DNA of 5,507 bases from contig JADFZC010000200.1 of NCBI GenBank assembly GCA_015232735.1, positions 1-5,507 on the forward strand. The letters run 5' to 3'. Below, piece after piece: positions 1 through 5,507 of the stretch. The notes under the pieces are model-generated. The model saw nothing but the letters and a program-made list of their open reading frames with translations. It made no database searches and was not told the DNA's origin. How positions within the stretch are numbered: position 1 is the stretch's first letter; every line of letters starts with the position of its first letter. The DNA comes from Oligoflexales bacterium (GTDB lineage: Bacteria; Bdellovibrionota; Oligoflexia; Oligoflexales; Oligoflexaceae). Made by a program: the position numbers and the translations under genes.

Positions 1-1302
1 CTTTTGCCCAGAAACTGCAAGTTGACAATAAATGGAAAAATAAAGCTCATCGAGATGGACTGGAACTACATAGTCAGCAATAATCTGATAAAAAGGGTTA
101 TTGCAACCGTGCGCGATGTCACTGAAATAAAAAGGCTTGAGCAGGAATCTCTTGAACATCAGAAGGAGATGGAAATAATAAGTGAAATCCTCCCTGTTTC
201 CAGGATGGATTTTTCAGATTTCATATGCAACTCAAAGGAATTTATCTGTCAGAACCATATGCTTATCGAGAAGATTGACGGAAGAAGCACTGACATGATT
301 GCAGTTCTTTTCAGAAATATGCATACCATTAAAGGCGAAGCGCGGCTCTATGGTTTCAAGAGCATTTGCAGCAGCGTGCACAAGGCGGAACAGACCTATG
401 ACATTTTAAGATTGACCGGTGTGGATGTGCAGGAATCGGACAAGAGACAGATGAAGGAGGAACTGAAAGACGTCGAGAAATTGATTGCAAGATATAATGA
501 CATCAGCACAAACAAGCTTGGCAGGGCAGCTTCCGAGGTCGACCATGATAAAGTCGTTCTGAACAGAAGTCTTATAAAGTCGGTCTCCGAGCCTTTGCTT
601 CAGATCGATATTGATAAAACCGGCGAACATAAAAGCACCTTTGAAAGATTGCGTAATTTCTTTATATGGGCAAACACTTATGATTTTTCAATCTGCTTGT
701 CAGGCATGTTGAAGGGGATGCCCATATTGGCCAGGGAGCTGGAAAAGGAATCCCCGGAAATATTGATCGCAAACGGCAAAATCCGGATAACAAAGGAGGA
801 GAACGATCTTATCAAAAAAGTGCTCATACATGCATTTCGCAATTCAATCGATCATGGCATTGAAACCCCTGAGGAACGGAGGAGAGCTGGCAAATCGGAA
901 AAAGGGAAAATAGAGATTTCAACGGACATAGTTGATGAAAATTTAAGGATTCTTTACAGGGATGACGGAAGAGGTCTCAATTTGTATGCGATCAGGGAGA
1001 AGGCGATTCAAAGAAAATTGATTGGAGAGAGTCATAATCTCGGATGGCAGTACATAGCCGAACTGATTTTCACATCCGGGATGTCGACGTCAAACAAAGT
1101 CACCAAGATTTCAGGGCGCGGCGTCGGAATGAACGCCATCAAGAAATTTGTGGAATCATACGGGGGAAGCGTCAATCTGATCCTGGAAGGAGAGGTGCCT
1201 CTATCGGGCTTTGCCCCTTTTACACTCTCCATCACCATCCTGCGAGGCAGGCAGCACATGCTCCATGCTGTGCACAGGCAGTTATTCGATTTTGCAGCCT
1301 GA
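1..1302 (+). CDS. CheA-like histidine kinase: PAS end, Hpt, CheA-type ATPase (5' partial)
   Basis: C-terminal part of a cytoplasmic-facing signalling kinase. The frame is open from base 1, so the apparent TTG start at 4 is not real and the gene begins upstream. Residues (counted from base 4) 1-45 look like the end of a PAS/PAC domain (TVRDVTEIKRLE), followed by a short helix. Residues 65-165 form an Hpt domain with phospho-acceptor His107 in HTIKGEARLYGF. Residues 215-412 form a CheA P4-type ATPase: N box LIHAFRNSIDHGIETPEE (274-291), G1 box YRDDGRGLN (318-326) and G2 box SGRGVGMNAIKKF (370-382). The family autophosphorylates the Hpt His and passes phosphate to a response regulator. The P3 dimerisation helices are not recognisable, and the protein stops about 20 residues after P4, so no CheW-like P5 domain is present. 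It is therefore probably not a standard receptor-array CheA. No response regulator lies in view. The class is secure; the partner and signal are unknown. Confidence 0.88.
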   Translation, partial: LLPRNCKLTINGKIKLIEMDWNYIVSNNLIKRVIATVRDVTEIKRLEQESLEHQKEMEIISEILPVSRMDFSDFICNSKEFICQNHMLIEKIDGRSTDMIAVLFRNMHTIKGEARLYGFKSICSSVHKAEQTYDILRLTGVDVQESDKRQMKEELKDVEKLIARYNDISTNKLGRAASEVDHDKVVLNRSLIKSVSEPLLQIDIDKTGEHKSTFERLRNFFIWANTYDFSICLSGMLKGMPILARELEKESPEILIANGKIRITKEENDLIKKVLIHAFRNSIDHGIETPEERRRAGKSEKGKIEISTDIVDENLRILYRDDGRGLNLYAIREKAIQRKLIGESHNLGWQYIAELIFTSGMSTSNKVTKISGRGVGMNAIKKFVESYGGSVNLILEGEVPLSGFAPFTLSITILRGRQHMLHAVHRQLFDFAA

Positions 1303-1321
1303 AAGGGAAAGGTTTTTTTTT
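1296..1321 (+). terminator. possible weak intrinsic terminator after the kinase gene
   Basis: The stop codon region AGCCT (1296-1300) can pair with AGGTT (1310-1314) through a nine-base loop, including one G-U pair, and a run of nine T (1313-1321) follows. The stem is short and overlaps the stop codon, so the case rests mainly on the T tract and its place in a 25-bp gap between convergent genes. On the opposite strand the same tract is a run of A and would not end the minus-strand operon. Confidence 0.3.
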
Positions 1322-1327
1322 GGTCTG

Positions 1328-2008
1328 TCAGTGTCCAAGTTCCGTGCCGCCCTGGGATGTGCGTCCGGTGATTTCACGGAGCCTTTGAATGATGATTGCA
1401 GTCTCGACGCTCTTTGGATTTATCACAAGCGAGGTCTCATATGCCCTCAGCGCCTTTACGTACTGTTTCTGCAGGTAAAAGACGTTTCCCTGAAGATCAT
1501 AAAGCACGCTTACATGGGGAAACTCCGATATAAGCTGGCCGAGCTTTACATTTGCGACATCATAATCGCCCCTGAGTATCGTAGCCTGGGTCGATGCGAT
1601 GCCTTCGGAAAGTCTGTTCATGGATTCTCTTGAAATCTCCTTGCACTGGTCGAGCTTCTTTGCCGCCTCTTCGGACATTCCTCCCGAGGCCGTGGAATTT
1701 GCAAGCGGTATGAGGTTAAAGTTGACTCTGTGGCGGCTGGTGAAGGAAGACCTTGGAAGAACGACGGAGTTTTCGAAGTAACCCTCCTTTAAAACCGTGA
1801 TGCGCGCGTAGTCCCTGTCGCCTGAATCAAAAACCCGGTCAAGGGAAATGTCAAGCGGCGTCTGTCCTATGACTGTCCTGTTGTTGTTGCTGTTTATGAC
1901 GATAACATCAGATTTTTCAGGCGTAGAGGTCACAGTCAGGGTGCCTATGCTTGCGCATCCCGTCATGCACATTATAAATGGCGTCAATAATACACTTTTC
2001 ATAGGCAT
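1328..2008 (-). CDS. outer-membrane lipoprotein with PEGA-like domain and C-terminal TPR
   Basis: A 226-residue predicted lipoprotein. Residues 1-17 are a short signal peptide ending in lipobox MTGC with Cys18 as the lipidated residue. Position +2 is Ala, not Asp, which favours sorting to the outer membrane. Residues about 22-100 read as a PEGA-type beta domain: TLTVTSTPEKSDVIV, then GQTPLDISL and ITVLKEGYF. A Ser/Gly-rich linker and a helix (112-145) follow, then TPR-like helices (147-200), the clearest being LQGNVFYLQKQYVKALRAY with a closing NPKS. PEGA domains are known from surface and envelope proteins, and TPRs are protein-docking modules, so a scaffold role in the periplasm is likely. 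ATG at 2008 is preceded by GGAAAG four bases upstream. The second ATG (2002, Met3) has ten-base spacing and gives an equally good signal peptide. It is last in the minus-strand block, 104 bp after the barrel gene. Specific function unknown. Confidence 0.82.
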   Translation of the reverse strand: MPMKSVLLTPFIMCMTGCASIGTLTVTSTPEKSDVIVINSNNNRTVIGQTPLDISLDRVFDSGDRDYARITVLKEGYFENSVVLPRSSFTSRHRVNFNLIPLANSTASGGMSEEAAKKLDQCKEISRESMNRLSEGIASTQATILRGDYDVANVKLGQLISEFPHVSVLYDLQGNVFYLQKQYVKALRAYETSLVINPKSVETAIIIQRLREITGRTSQGGTELGH

Positions 2009-2112
2009 TATTCTTTCCGCTCATAATTTTGGTCTGAATTCTTCAAACCTCATTTTTATAAATCGGAAAAAAAATTTTTTTCTTTAGTGAAAAAAAGACG
2101 GAAAACTCTGAA
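2009..2112 (-). promoter_or_regulatory. AT-rich gap between barrel and lipoprotein genes, possible promoter
   Basis: This 104-bp gap is the only real break in the minus-strand block and is much richer in A and T than its flanks. On the minus strand it carries GATTTATAAAAATG (around 2054-2066), which contains a TATAAA -10-like element, downstream of an A7T8 tract that would bend DNA or act as an UP-like element. No convincing -35 box at standard spacing was found. The lipoprotein ribosome-binding site GCGGAAAG sits at its downstream edge. The lipoprotein may thus have its own promoter, or be read through from the operon. Confidence 0.25.
2067..2096 (-). terminator. A/T hairpin followed by T8 tract downstream of barrel gene
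   Basis: On the minus strand TTTTTTTC (2096-2089) pairs perfectly with GAAAAAAA (2082-2075) across the six-base loop ACTAAA, and eight T follow directly (2074-2067). The geometry is that of an intrinsic terminator placed 17 bases after the barrel stop codon. The stem is almost all A-U, so it would be weak and could give partial termination, lowering lipoprotein expression relative to the motor genes. It may also be a by-product of the low-complexity tract. Confidence 0.35.
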
Positions 2113-2742
2113 TTATAAGGAAGCTCCTATGCCGCCCATGACATTATACTCGGAAATATGGCTGGTTAGGGGACCTTTGAGGGAGATGTAGCGGATTTTC
2201 GTCGTGATATAGTACTTTTCGCTGAATTGGTAATCGATAGAGAGGGTTATTCCTGCCCCGGCGTAGGATGAATTTATCGATTGGTACTGCCTCTGGTTGA
2301 AGGAAAATCCTATCGATGGCCTGAAGACCTCAAAATATGACCAGCTTATCGTCCTGTCATTATATTGAAAGGGGCGGTTGAAGGTAAATGGGTAGTAGGC
2401 CAGCTCAAGGTCGAAACCGAAGCCGAGGTCCATGCTTTTTGTTCCGAGGATATAAAAACTGTAGGATGGTCTGAAAACAAACCGGTCCCCTATCTCGCTT
2501 TCGTAGACAAAATGATAGATCCCAAGATTTGCGAGTTTGTCCCTGGTCGTCTTTGTTTTTGCGTCAAGCTGGAAATATCCGCCCATTATGCTGTAACCCG
2601 AGGCAAGTATGATTTCCGGGATGAAGATGAGGGATGCAAGGTATAGTGCCAGGGAACGGACAAGAAGATTTGTATTAAATCTTCTTTTATGGCGGCATAT
2701 GTATTTCATATGTCTAACCGGCTTTTGGAAGGGTTGTGTCAT
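2113..2742 (-). CDS. probable small outer-membrane beta-barrel protein
   Basis: A 209-residue secreted protein that I do not recognise as a named family. The basic stretch RHKRRF (17-22) precedes a hydrophobic segment LALYLASLIFIPEIILA (31-47), a signal peptide with likely cleavage near Ala47/Ser48. The mature part (about 160 residues) has alternating polar/aromatic strands with turns, such as RFVFRPSYSFYILG, SYFEVFRPSIGFSFN, AGAGITLSIDYQF and KYYITTKIRYISLKG, and closes with a Gly-rich strand ending in Leu. This fits an eight-strand-type barrel, though the last residue is not the usual Phe. Start choice is uncertain. ATG at 2742 overlaps the preceding gene by 29 bases and has AAGGA eight bases upstream, which is also that gene's Lys/Glu coding. 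ATG at 2709 lies four bases after that gene's stop, gives a shorter signal peptide, but lacks a ribosome-binding site. Tight linkage implies translational coupling and a shared role with the rotor-like protein. Confidence 0.72.
   Translation of the reverse strand: MTQPFQKPVRHMKYICRHKRRFNTNLLVRSLALYLASLIFIPEIILASGYSIMGGYFQLDAKTKTTRDKLANLGIYHFVYESEIGDRFVFRPSYSFYILGTKSMDLGFGFDLELAYYPFTFNRPFQYNDRTISWSYFEVFRPSIGFSFNQRQYQSINSSYAGAGITLSIDYQFSEKYYITTKIRYISLKGPLTSHISEYNVMGGIGASL
2662..2686. repeat. perfect 10-bp inverted repeat inside the start of the barrel gene
   Basis: AAGAAGATTT (2662-2671) and AAATCTTCTT (2677-2686) are exact reverse complements around a five-base spacer. In the minus-strand mRNA this is a stable-geometry hairpin beginning about 23 bases after the ATG at 2709 and about 56 after the ATG at 2742. 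It encodes part of the signal peptide n-region. No T tract follows on the minus strand, so it is not a classic terminator. It could mask or pause translation at the operon junction, or limit mRNA decay. Confidence 0.6.
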
Positions 2743-4894
2743 TTTCCTTTTCCTTATCCGCTTCGCTGGGCGATTTATCCTTGTCGCTTATATTCTCGTC
2801 TGGTTTTTTTGCATCAGCACTGGAATCCGCCGGCTTTTTATCACCATCTGCCTGCGCTGGAGGTATCGGCTGTGAGGCCTGAGGCGGTTTTGGCGCCTGA
2901 GGGGCCATTGGAGGTCTCGGCGCGCCGACGGGAGCCTGAGGCGGTCTGGGCGTCTGCGCTGATTGGGGCGTTTGCGGTGCTGCAGGTGCCATGGGAGGTG
3001 TCGGAGCAGGTCTCGATGCAGGCGGTGCTGAAGGAGCAGTCGCTGCCTGCGTCTCGGCGGTTTTTTGAACCAGCCCGGGGGCCGGCGTCTGGACTGTCTG
3101 GGGAGGGCTTTGCTGGGCTGAGGCGCTTTGAACCGGTTTTGGAGCCTGCGGCTGATGTGCGGCTCTTTGCTGCTTGAGCCTTTCCGCCTGTTCCTCCTCA
3201 CTTGCCTGGCTGTCTTCCAATGTCTTTTCAGATTCTCTTCTCAACAATATTTCTTCAAGGGCAAAGGCGATTGTTTCCCGGACCTTGCCTATTTCCGTCT
3301 TATTGAAGGTCTTGCTCTTGTCAAGGTTCTTGAATCCCTCGAAAAGGAGGAATTTCTGTTTTTCGTTCATTATTTCTTCAAAATTGCGTCTCTGGTCCTT
3401 GGGGACATTGAAAAGGGCCATAGTCCAGTCGTTGAGGGTGAATCTCGGAAAGATCTCTCCGATCACATCCATCGGCTGGTTGAACAGGACATAAAAGGGC
3501 GGCCTTATGGTTTTAAGAAAAGAGTCCGGACCGCTGGCCTCGTAAACCTCCTTTTCCTCGTTTGTGTCGGCGGAAAGCAGAAATTCGACCAGGCCCCGTT
3601 CATGCTCATAATATTCAAGCATCTTCGGATCATTGAGAGGTTTCAGCTTCAGAGCCATCTCCCTTATGGAAGCAACCTCCTCCTTTGGCAGAAGATCGGG
3701 CTTGAATGTCGGGTCGAGAAGCTTGCCCCATGCGCCGGGGAATGCCATCTTCCCGTACCGGATGGACACGCTGGAAGGCATGTATGCAAGGATTGAGAGC
3801 GCCTTCCATTGTCCAAGTTCCCGGAGAATTTCAACGACGTCATTTTCGAGTCTCCACAGGTATGTCAGAAGTTCGTCAAAGTCAAGGCGCAGCGCCGCTT
3901 TCCTGTTTTGTGTAAGGCTGTTGAGAAGCTCCCACGACTGAAGGCCCATCTGTGCCTTGCTGAACATGACCGATAGCCATTGCCTTCCTGTTGTCAGTGA
4001 GAAAATCTTGTTCTGTATCTGAATAGGGAATTCCTTGACAGCCCCGGTGACTATCCTGGGATCTGTTTTCAGGTATTCGGAGAAGATGAGGATATCCTGG
4101 AGCCTCGGGAACGCCGGGTCGCTGACGAGCGTAAGGATAAGCGGCTTTGCGTGTTCCTTGAGTTTTACAGGATCCTGGAACACCATGTTTGCGCGGTTAT
4201 CGTCATCCTTTCCATGTTCACTCCTGGAAGCTGTGATCGGCTGTGCAGGCATCTGGGAAGTCCCTCCCATTCCTCCGGCCTTGCTTGAAACCTCCAGAAG
4301 TCCCTTTCTGATCTGCGATGAGAGATTTCTTATTATCAGGAATATACCGAGAAGAAAGAGGACAAGCGCCGATCCTGCGATAACGATGTATTCGGTCCTG
4401 ATACCTCCGTCCTTGTTTACCCAGGGCCTGAGCTCGAATTTTATGTTGTCCCGTCCAAGGACAAGTCCAAGGTTGCTGAACAGCGCCTCCCTGAGCTCGG
4501 TAAGCTCATCGCTTGTCACTGATGAGGGAAGGGTCACGATCATATCGACGGATTGTATCCTGGGCATCAGATCATGAACCGACTTTGACTCATCGTCCCA
4601 TACATCAACTACTTTCATGTCAGGTGCCGCGTGAAACGGAAGCATGATTTGAGGGGATTGGGCAGGAGGGATCATCCCTCCCATGTCGCGGCGCAGCGGC
4701 ATGACTTTTATGGTGACAAGGACCGGCATCATGGGAAAGCGTCCCTTGATGAACTCTATGGCCTTTCCAGTGAGGTAAGATTCAACCTCGACCACCTTGG
4801 GACTCTTTTGCATCGTCTGGGCTTTCATGATAGCCGGGACCAGGATCGAAAGACCGGCGGTCAGCAGTATCAGCCATTTGATAAAAGTCTTCAT
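2714..4894 (-). CDS. FliF-FliG-like fusion: reduced M-ring domain, membrane segment, rotor/switch domain
   Basis: A 726-residue inner-membrane protein. In flagella, FliF builds the MS ring and FliG binds it and receives stator torque; here both appear in one chain. Residues 5-22 are a signal/first membrane segment. Residues 33-158 are periplasmic and match the third ring-building motif of FliF: VEVESYLTGKAIEFI then PVLVTIKVMPL, a Pro/Met-rich insert (70-113) where FliF carries its beta-collar, and VDMIVTLPSSVTSDEL ending in GRDNIKFELRPW. A second membrane helix is at 169-188. After a linker, residues 245-420 are helical and resemble FliG N/middle repeats (DPRIVTGAVKEFPIQIQNKI; LRELGQWKALSILAYMP). 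Residues 466-553 resemble the FliG C domain, including ALFNVPKDQRRNFEEIMNEK and KVRETIAFALEEIL. Residues 575-685 are Pro/Ala/Gln-rich, and the end is charged. ATG at 4894 overlaps the MotB-like stop as ATGA, with GGAG seven bases upstream. The core is smaller than FliF plus FliG. Homology is judged by eye; the fusion order is the strongest evidence. Confidence 0.72.
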   Translation of the reverse strand: MKTFIKWLILLTAGLSILVPAIMKAQTMQKSPKVVEVESYLTGKAIEFIKGRFPMMPVLVTIKVMPLRRDMGGMIPPAQSPQIMLPFHAAPDMKVVDVWDDESKSVHDLMPRIQSVDMIVTLPSSVTSDELTELREALFSNLGLVLGRDNIKFELRPWVNKDGGIRTEYIVIAGSALVLFLLGIFLIIRNLSSQIRKGLLEVSSKAGGMGGTSQMPAQPITASRSEHGKDDDNRANMVFQDPVKLKEHAKPLILTLVSDPAFPRLQDILIFSEYLKTDPRIVTGAVKEFPIQIQNKIFSLTTGRQWLSVMFSKAQMGLQSWELLNSLTQNRKAALRLDFDELLTYLWRLENDVVEILRELGQWKALSILAYMPSSVSIRYGKMAFPGAWGKLLDPTFKPDLLPKEEVASIREMALKLKPLNDPKMLEYYEHERGLVEFLLSADTNEEKEVYEASGPDSFLKTIRPPFYVLFNQPMDVIGEIFPRFTLNDWTMALFNVPKDQRRNFEEIMNEKQKFLLFEGFKNLDKSKTFNKTEIGKVRETIAFALEEILLRRESEKTLEDSQASEEEQAERLKQQRAAHQPQAPKPVQSASAQQSPPQTVQTPAPGLVQKTAETQAATAPSAPPASRPAPTPPMAPAAPQTPQSAQTPRPPQAPVGAPRPPMAPQAPKPPQASQPIPPAQADGDKKPADSSADAKKPDENISDKDKSPSEADKEKENDTTLPKAG
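2780..3170 (-). other. low-complexity Pro/Ala/Gln-rich tail of the FliF-FliG-like protein
   Basis: This segment encodes about residues 575-705 of the fusion protein. It is dominated by Pro, Ala and Gln with recurrent QAPKP, QTPQ, RPPQAP and PPMAP motifs, then turns into a Lys/Asp/Ser/Glu-rich end. It follows directly on the torque-domain-like region and on a charged helix (ESEKTLEDSQASEEEQAERLKQ in register 554-575). Such tails are normally disordered and act as tethers or binding platforms. The biased codons create long open frames on both strands here, which are not genes. Confidence 0.8.
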
Positions 4895-5507
4895 GATTTG
4901 ACTCCAACAGGCTCTATGACAAGCATTATTTTGCGGGCAAGCGCCAGTTCCTCGGTTTGATTTTTTGGCATTTCATCTTTCAGAAGGTCCGTTTTCACCC
5001 CGTGGCCCATAAGTTTTATTCGTGAAAGGGGTATCCCTTTCTCCTCTATCAGCCTCAGGGCGCTGACCGCCCGCAGTGTCGACAGTTCAAGGTTGTCCCT
5101 GAATTTTCTGAAGGAGCCGCTGCGGACCGGTCTTCTGTCAGCAAAACCGACTATATTGAGGGTATTTTGCCCTGCGAACGGCAGGTATGCCTCCACAAAC
5201 CTTGTCAGGACAGCTATGCCCTCTTTTTTAAGGCTGGTACTTGCATTGTCGAAGAAGGAGACGTTCGGGAAAGTTATAACCATCGTTTCCGCAACCCTTC
5301 TCACTTCGGCGTTGAGCGCCGCGATGGTGACGATCCCTTCTTTTACATCCTTGTTCAAAGCCGCATCTTTCTGTTTTGCATCACTCAGTTTTTCATCCTT
5401 GTTCAAAGCCACCTCATTCTGCCTTGCATCACTCAGTTTTTCATCCTTGTTGAAAGCCGCATCTTTCTGTTTTGCATCACTCAGTTTTTCATCCTTGTTC
5501 AAAGCCA
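4891..5507 (-). CDS. MotB/OmpA-like peptidoglycan-binding protein (5' partial)
   Basis: C-terminal part of a probable stator-like anchor. The frame is open to the window edge, and the TTG at 5502 lies inside a repeat, so the start and any N-terminal membrane helix are outside. Counted from 5502, residues 1-51 are a highly charged 16-residue tandem repeat (ALNKDEKLSDAKQKDA type). Residues 55-72 form a helix, and residues 73-197 are an OmpA/MotB domain: ITFPNVSFFDNASTSLKKEG, then LNIVGFADRRPV, DNLELSTLRAVSAL, GIPLSRIKLMGHG and ARKIMLVIEP. Asp122 and Arg144 occupy the positions that bind diaminopimelate in this family. The NLELSTLRA block and RRPVRSGSFRKF spacing are closer to MotB than to OmpA or Pal. 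The usual GHTD motif is GFAD here. The stop codon overlaps the start of the FliF-FliG-like gene (ATGA), so the two are co-translated. A MotA-like partner would be expected upstream. It could instead be a plain OmpA-type anchor without an ion channel. Confidence 0.82.
   Translation of the reverse strand, partial: ALNKDEKLSDAKQKDAAFNKDEKLSDARQNEVALNKDEKLSDAKQKDAALNKDVKEGIVTIAALNAEVRRVAETMVITFPNVSFFDNASTSLKKEGIAVLTRFVEAYLPFAGQNTLNIVGFADRRPVRSGSFRKFRDNLELSTLRAVSALRLIEEKGIPLSRIKLMGHGVKTDLLKDEMPKNQTEELALARKIMLVIEPVGVKS
4902..4905 (-). promoter_or_regulatory. ribosome-binding site of the FliF-FliG-like gene
   Basis: GGAG on the minus strand lies seven bases before the ATG at 4894, inside the last codons of the MotB-like gene. 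It supports this start and, with the ATGA overlap, translational coupling of the two genes. Confidence 0.7.
5347..5507 (-). repeat. 48-bp in-frame tandem repeats, at least 3 full copies
   Basis: Full units on the minus strand are 5505-5458, 5457-5410 and 5409-5362, with a partial unit 5361-5347. Each unit encodes 16 residues of the form A-L/F-N-K-D-E-K-L-S-D-A-K/R-Q-x-x-A/V. The first and third units differ at one of 48 bases, while the middle unit differs from its neighbours at five or more. The 13 bases at the window edge match the middle type. The array runs off the window, so its true length is unknown. The product is charged and helix-prone, probably a spacer or coiled coil between the membrane and the peptidoglycan-binding domain. 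Confidence 0.92.

Follow-up and report, generated by a model that had tools for sequence, protein, structure and literature searches.

A FliF-FliG fusion protein linked to its own MotA and MotB in Bdellovibrionota, a candidate rotor subunit for a second, non-flagellar motor

We analyzed a 5,507-nucleotide stretch of DNA from an Oligoflexales bacterium (assembly GCA_015232735.1, contig JADFZC010000200.1, positions 1 to 5,507; hereafter the window). Its reverse strand contains an open reading frame (ORF) of 726 amino acids (2714..4894) that joins parts of two flagellar rotor proteins, FliF and FliG. Our computational comparisons, based on structure and profiles, show that a single chain combines a domain like the RBM3/collar of FliF outside the inner membrane, a helix like the second transmembrane helix of FliF (TM2), and a FliG-like half with the torque domain FliG-C inside. 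They also show a conserved linkage in which the fusion comes with a dedicated MotA and MotB, a barrel of the outer membrane and lipoproteins. With moderate confidence, we interpret the fusion as the rotor subunit of an ion-driven motor that is distinct from the flagellum and additional to it.

Domain layout of the fusion protein

A first-pass annotation of the window had described a single chain leading from a FliF-like periplasmic part through a membrane helix to a FliG-like part. Structure comparison agreed, giving FliF RBM3 and then FliG, and sequence comparison backed the RBM3-TM2 segment and FliG-C. The chain, read from the reverse strand, begins with a predicted signal peptide (residues 1-26; 4817..4894), in which hydrophobic 19-mers begin at residues 4-5. 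Next come the periplasmic RBM3/collar-like domain (residues 27-159; 4418..4816), assigned by structure and profile, and a single transmembrane helix (residues ~167-190; 4325..4396) that aligned with FliF TM2. Confident predicted helices occupy the place of FliG-N (residues ~241-340; 3875..4174). A second helical region, at the place of FliG-M (residues ~341-440; 3575..3874), lies inside the aligned range of the FliG rows and is without the EHPQ motif. The torque domain FliG-C (residues ~460-555; 3230..3517) was assigned by structure and profiles, with K512 opposite FliG R281. The last part of the chain is a Pro/Ala/Gln-rich tail (residues 580-726; 2717..3157) not found in the eight relatives compared; this tail accounts for the length of the window protein.

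The N-terminal part was identified by structure comparison as RBM3 with the collar fold. It also matched the canonical FliF of the same genomes by profile (hhalign P 2.9e-4; crossed controls, 0.66 and 0.24), in a register that covers TM2 and the helix-strand at the end of RBM3. The FliF half proposed in the first-pass annotation is supported, with a correction: of FliF, only RBM3 and the TM2-like helix are present, and RBM1, RBM2 and an uncleaved TM1 were not found in the ~130 periplasmic residues, forming one domain, that lead from the signal peptide to the transmembrane helix.

On the FliG side, the sequence evidence is centered on the C-terminal domain. The Pfam family FliG_C matched six of 28 fusion members (best E 1.2e-6). 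A profile built from 58 fusion members and compared with the PDB gave FliG chains at E 1.7e-4, with unrelated chains appearing from 0.036. The profile of the C-domain segment alone matched a sister family from Bdellovibrio-like genomes (1e-6; see below), canonical FliG (0.0031) and FliF (0.062). EHPQ is the FliM-binding motif of FliG; in a motif scan it was present in 14/14 canonical FliG proteins and in 0/61 fusions. The torque-helix column that contains K512, in register with FliG R281, is Lys or Arg in 60/60 fusions, and R281 is among the MotA-FliG residue pairs given in the abstract of PMC7564593.

The conserved locus and its distribution

The fusion noted in the first-pass annotation is real, and it is also present in relatives. 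A protein search found eight relatives at 24-37% identity and a profile search added three; over the FliG half, identity to the window protein is 19-36%. Scanning named genomes yielded 24 loci, whose labels are Bdellovibrionales, Bdellovibrionota, Bdellovibrionaceae, Bdellovibrio sp., Bacteriovoracaceae, Oligoflexia, or just 'bacterium' or 'Proteobacteria'. We opened the genomes for 18 of these loci, and all 18 fell inside one phylum set of 368 genomes. Fusion matches were present in 73 of the 368, and 68 carriers were left after fragments or FliG-only matches (G082, G255, G271, G275 and G287) were excluded. Complete fusions are 545-797 amino acids long (median 571; n = 58).

We examined gene neighborhoods at 62 loci: 37 regions chosen among the 73 matching genomes, in addition to the window and the 24 loci from named genomes. 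Duplicate loci (L063-L075) were excluded from locus and residue counts. Six-frame profile searches detected MotB at 61 loci, MotA at 58, the barrel at 56, a lipoprotein at 56 and an NHL-propeller protein at 45 (on the opposite strand in 12 of the 45). The commonest gene order is lipoprotein-MotA-MotB-fusion-barrel-NHL. Variants include the window, where the lipoprotein follows the barrel, two rearranged loci (L019 and L089), and some loci with the NHL gene upstream. MotA is absent from the window, L021 and L104, all of which lie at a contig end.

Residues characteristic of a stator are retained. MotA lies outside the view of the window, and in relatives it matched MotA_ExbB in Pfam (2/2; E 8e-20 and 3e-17) and has the Pro-Pro motif in 58/58. 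Both MotB proteins scanned matched MotB_plug and OmpA, and both large proteins scanned matched NHL. The transmembrane Asp of MotB is present in all 58 proteins in which this segment is visible (by pattern in 57 and by eye in L013), and the OmpA peptidoglycan-binding motif in 56/61. A lipobox pattern was found in 39/56 lipoproteins and 39/45 NHL proteins, with Asp after the Cys in only one NHL protein. The last residue of the barrel is Phe in 27/55.

The window itself holds four other genes, three of them on the same strand as the fusion. The MotB-like gene (4891..5505) encodes an OmpA-type domain (Pfam OmpA E 7.5e-9); its 5' end and the part encoding the transmembrane segment are beyond the contig edge. 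In the linker of the encoded protein there are several copies of near-identical repeats of the type NKDEKLSDAKQKDAA. The inferred small outer-membrane beta-barrel (2113..2742) had MipA and OmpG matches below the Pfam cut-off and is part of the conserved cluster. The lipoprotein gene (1328..2008) encodes PEGA and TPR domains that are both below the Pfam cut-off in the window and above it in L001. The stop of the MotB-like gene overlaps the start of the fusion gene by four bases, and the 3' end of the fusion gene overlaps the barrel gene by 29 bases, so these three genes very likely form a single transcript. A contig-cut CheA-like gene with Hpt and HATPase domains (1..1302, forward strand; ORF and Pfam scan) converges on this operon. 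A homologue is found as an 831-amino-acid ORF after the barrel in L017; the gene was seen in 2/25 clustered sources.

The ssrA-type signal recognized by ClpXP and ClpAP has a terminal Ala-Ala as its core. Among proteins whose 3' end is not cut by a contig end, the C-terminal pattern [AVSTI][AS] occurs in 57/58 fusions (Ala-Ala in 38) and 52/57 MotA proteins (Ala-Ala in 34). It is found in 3/56 MotB proteins, 1/55 lipoproteins, 0/53 barrels and 0/38 NHL proteins, and in 12/427 other ORFs called with a simple caller (Ala-Ala in 4). The Ala codons at these C-termini vary. The Ala-Ala-like ends suggest, from the sequences, that MotA and the fusion may be removed by ClpXP or ClpAP at a life-cycle switch.

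Similar ends are found among flagellar proteins of the same genomes. The main flagellar MotA ends in Ala-Ala in 14/14 cases (L128-L141), and secondary MotA proteins are without it. Canonical FliF has similar terminal Ala in 9/18 (L045-L053; simple caller), and no such end was found in the 14 canonical FliG proteins read in the correct frame. The Ala ends of flagellar MotA and canonical FliF may mark these proteins for degradation, as a way of controlling motility over the life cycle.

A proposed second motor and its alternatives

The first-pass annotation had proposed a distinct rotary or force-generating device, pointing to neighbors other than a flagellar operon. Those neighbors were confirmed: a MotB-like protein, a barrel and a lipoprotein in the window, and a stator with envelope proteins in relatives. 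The RBM3 and FliG assignments, the recurrence of the fusion and its locus also support the device itself, whose ring and force we infer. The RBM3 domains would form a ring in the membrane, as FliF does with about 34 subunits, and this ring would bear a second one made of the torque domains. MotA/MotB units anchored to peptidoglycan would drive its rotation by pushing on the FliG-C helix. A ring that lacks a FliM, a rod and an export apparatus of its own would build no filament. It would instead turn or drag a complex in the envelope that consists of the barrel and two lipoproteins, one of them the NHL-propeller protein. Such a motor would most likely serve gliding over surfaces or handling of the prey surface.

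Several observations weigh against this interpretation. The window fusion protein alone had no useful family match in Pfam, NCBIfam or the PDB, and the direct profile comparison with canonical FliG was weak (E 0.055, P 0.016). The first-pass annotation had named matches to FliG-N, FliG-M and FliG-C as the support to look for; FliG-C was matched, and the segments at the places of FliG-N and FliG-M had no in-register profile match and no secure match of their own. At the FliG-N place, Foldseek alignments of ~330 columns span full-length FliG, the FliG rows from VIA-align leave the region uncovered, and the segment profile matched out of register. At the FliG-M place, VIA-align FliG rows cover the model from residue ~98, with a root-mean-square deviation of 10-19 A over the two-domain range, and the segment profile alone was out of register with canonical FliG (P 0.13). 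Within the torque helix, residue 519 (the place of D288) is Glu or Asp in 36/59, and residue 520 (the place of D289) shows no conservation. One locus, L091, has neither MotA nor MotB within ~7 kb, and the sole fusion without the conserved C-terminal pattern is the window protein, which ends in KAG. The remaining contrary points concern the relationship to the flagellum, and these also favor the leading alternative.

In that alternative, the fusion would contribute an extra membrane ring to the polar flagellar motor as an accessory, and its own MotAB would supply further torque to that flagellum or around it. Canonical FliF was found in 18/18 opened genomes and 49/50 further carriers. FliF is therefore present in 67/68 carriers, compared with 256/300 of the remaining genomes (p 9e-4, uncorrected for kinship). 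In G206, unlike the 18 genomes opened first, canonical FliF is on the same contig (C69), ~10 kb from the fusion. That flagellar MotA in these genomes also ends in Ala-Ala is a hint of joint control. In addition, the title of an article by Morehouse et al. from 2011 reportedly has three MotAB pairs of Bdellovibrio bacteriovorus contributing to a single flagellum. Three motAB pairs in B. bacteriovorus are also given in an excerpt of PMC11323537. If one of the sister loci described below holds one of those pairs, its stator is not solely non-flagellar.

We nevertheless consider the accessory ring unlikely. FliF was detected in 323/368 genomes of the phylum (eight through weak matches, E 1e-5 to 1e-11), and 256 of these 323 have no fusion of this type. 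In each of the 18 opened genomes there is exactly one FliM and a FliG_C match as strong as a canonical one, and their rod/hook (PF00460) and FliP (PF00813) genes are elsewhere in 18/18, with envelope proteins in the fusion locus instead. None of these genes was found on the fusion contig in 17 of the 18, and in G018 the nearest is ~220 kb away. In a tree of 46 MotA proteins, the 24 MotA proteins of the system form a single clade (100/100) that excludes the 14 flagellar and eight secondary MotA proteins. The lack of EHPQ also argues against an accessory ring.

A force transducer that does not rotate, of the Tol-Pal/ExbBD or Agl-Glt type, seems less probable still; in it, MotAB would be the energizer and the fusion would couple conformational force to the outer membrane. 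The lipoproteins and barrel recall the parts lists of envelope-energizing systems, and the peptidoglycan-binding motif of MotB is kept. However, the family also keeps a FliG-C domain with its basic helix residue and the ring-building domain of FliF, and we know of no need for either in systems of these types. That the fusion is a decaying flagellar gene copy with no function of its own, as the missing RBM1, RBM2, TM1 and EHPQ might indicate, is highly improbable given that gene order and invariant residues are conserved over the deep divergence of the family.

Sister families and known systems

Other FliG_C matches led to related proteins with a signal peptide, a periplasmic part, a transmembrane segment and FliG. 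One sister family of 739-766 amino acids (L113, 6280-8499; L114, 5250-7550; L115; and the cut L118, 2-1702) is present in 40/368 genomes and was above the Pfam cut-offs for FliG_C and FliG_M in the three members scanned. MotA and MotB adjoin it in 4/4 loci, and L114 additionally encodes a TPR lipoprotein. A small protein is encoded nearby in L113, L114 and L118, and in L114 it has a cNMP-binding domain, perhaps reflecting control of the motor by cyclic nucleotides.

A second sister family (577 amino acids in L160; L157-L164 and L116) is present in 26/368 genomes, which are Bdellovibrio-like, and was above the cut-offs for FliG_C and FliG_M in the two members scanned. By profile it bridges the window family (E 1.5e-9 over 459 columns) and FliG (1e-9), and it also matched FliF (4e-4) and the 739-766-amino-acid family (1e-70). 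MotA and MotB are in the stretch examined around it at eight of nine loci, the exception being the cut L164. In L157-L163 an opposite-strand gene and a PEGA/TPR-type lipoprotein lie between, and barrel-type matches in L157-L164 were below the Pfam cut-off. The single-contig genome G147 (3,782,950 bases) carries this family (L160:6421-13119), and its MotA ends in KKAA. The second sister family may offer a model-organism counterpart to the proposed motor.

Together, the three families are found in 115/368 genomes. This count does not include on its own account a 586-amino-acid protein with FliG_C and FliG_M beside MotA and MotB (L117, 1234-2994), which fits none of the three. Short frames of ~145-170 amino acids with FliG_C only are also present in several genomes, at L043, L044 and other places; these matches are strong (best 1e-29, in a frame with an internal stop).

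The fusion shares with the flagellar FliF and FliG rotor and its MotAB the RBM3/collar-like fold, the TM2-like helix, FliG-C, adjoining MotA and MotB, and the basic residue of the torque helix. It differs from that rotor in being one chain without RBM1, RBM2, TM1 or EHPQ, and in having a locus with a barrel and lipoproteins, in genomes that encode FliF, FliG and FliM separately. The first-pass annotation had stated that FliF and FliG are normally separate proteins. Both are indeed also encoded separately here, but a natural fusion is not unprecedented, because Chlamydiaceae have one. In an excerpt of PMC4768692, which also mentions artificial FliF-FliG fusions, a shortened FliF is joined to a cytosolic part homologous to the FliG M region and is discussed with the injectisome. 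The Chlamydiaceae fusion thus resembles the window fusion in its shortened FliF and cytosolic FliG sequence; as compared with that excerpt, FliG-C and dedicated MotAB belong to the Bdellovibrionota fusion.

Two other envelope machines are comparable. The myxobacterial Agl-Glt system has a MotA/TolQ-type stator with envelope partners, as does the fusion system; to our knowledge, Agl-Glt has no FliF or FliG part. We also know of no FliG-type rotor in the rotary gliding motor of the type IX secretion system (T9SS/Gld) of Bacteroidota, another phylum. The latter shares a stator driven by proton motive force (GldLM) that is proposed to move outer-membrane-associated proteins (excerpt of PMC13104615). 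In an excerpt of a MotAB study (PMC12505986), Bdellovibrio is named once, for AglRS. In the full texts searched, PMC10225642 and PMC13023049 among them and most subscription papers and bioRxiv not included, we came across no account of a fused FliF-FliG that has a MotAB of its own. The torque pair of FliG and MotA is known, and its stand-alone arrangement appears to be new.

Gliding by Bdellovibrio is described as independent of flagella and pili, and its machinery as unidentified and a major open challenge, in an excerpt of a 2026 review (PMC13104615). We tentatively suggest that Bdellovibrionota may have a hitherto unrecognized class of stand-alone rotary motors with fused FliF-FliG, in at least three parallel families with MotAB and lipoproteins at most of the loci looked at, and that one of these, in Bdellovibrio, could be the gliding motor. 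In this sense, the fusion system is a testable candidate for the machinery by which Bdellovibrionota glide. The FliG-MotA torque pair, thought to be flagellar, is found here with a reduced FliF and envelope proteins in a compact locus, in hosts that also have their own flagellar genes. If the proposed motor is real, it would show, in present-day cells, a flagellar motor core at work without an export apparatus, rod or filament. The fusion locus also offers a small system for asking how torque gets to the outer membrane, and how the core of the flagellar motor could exist before, or without, protein export.

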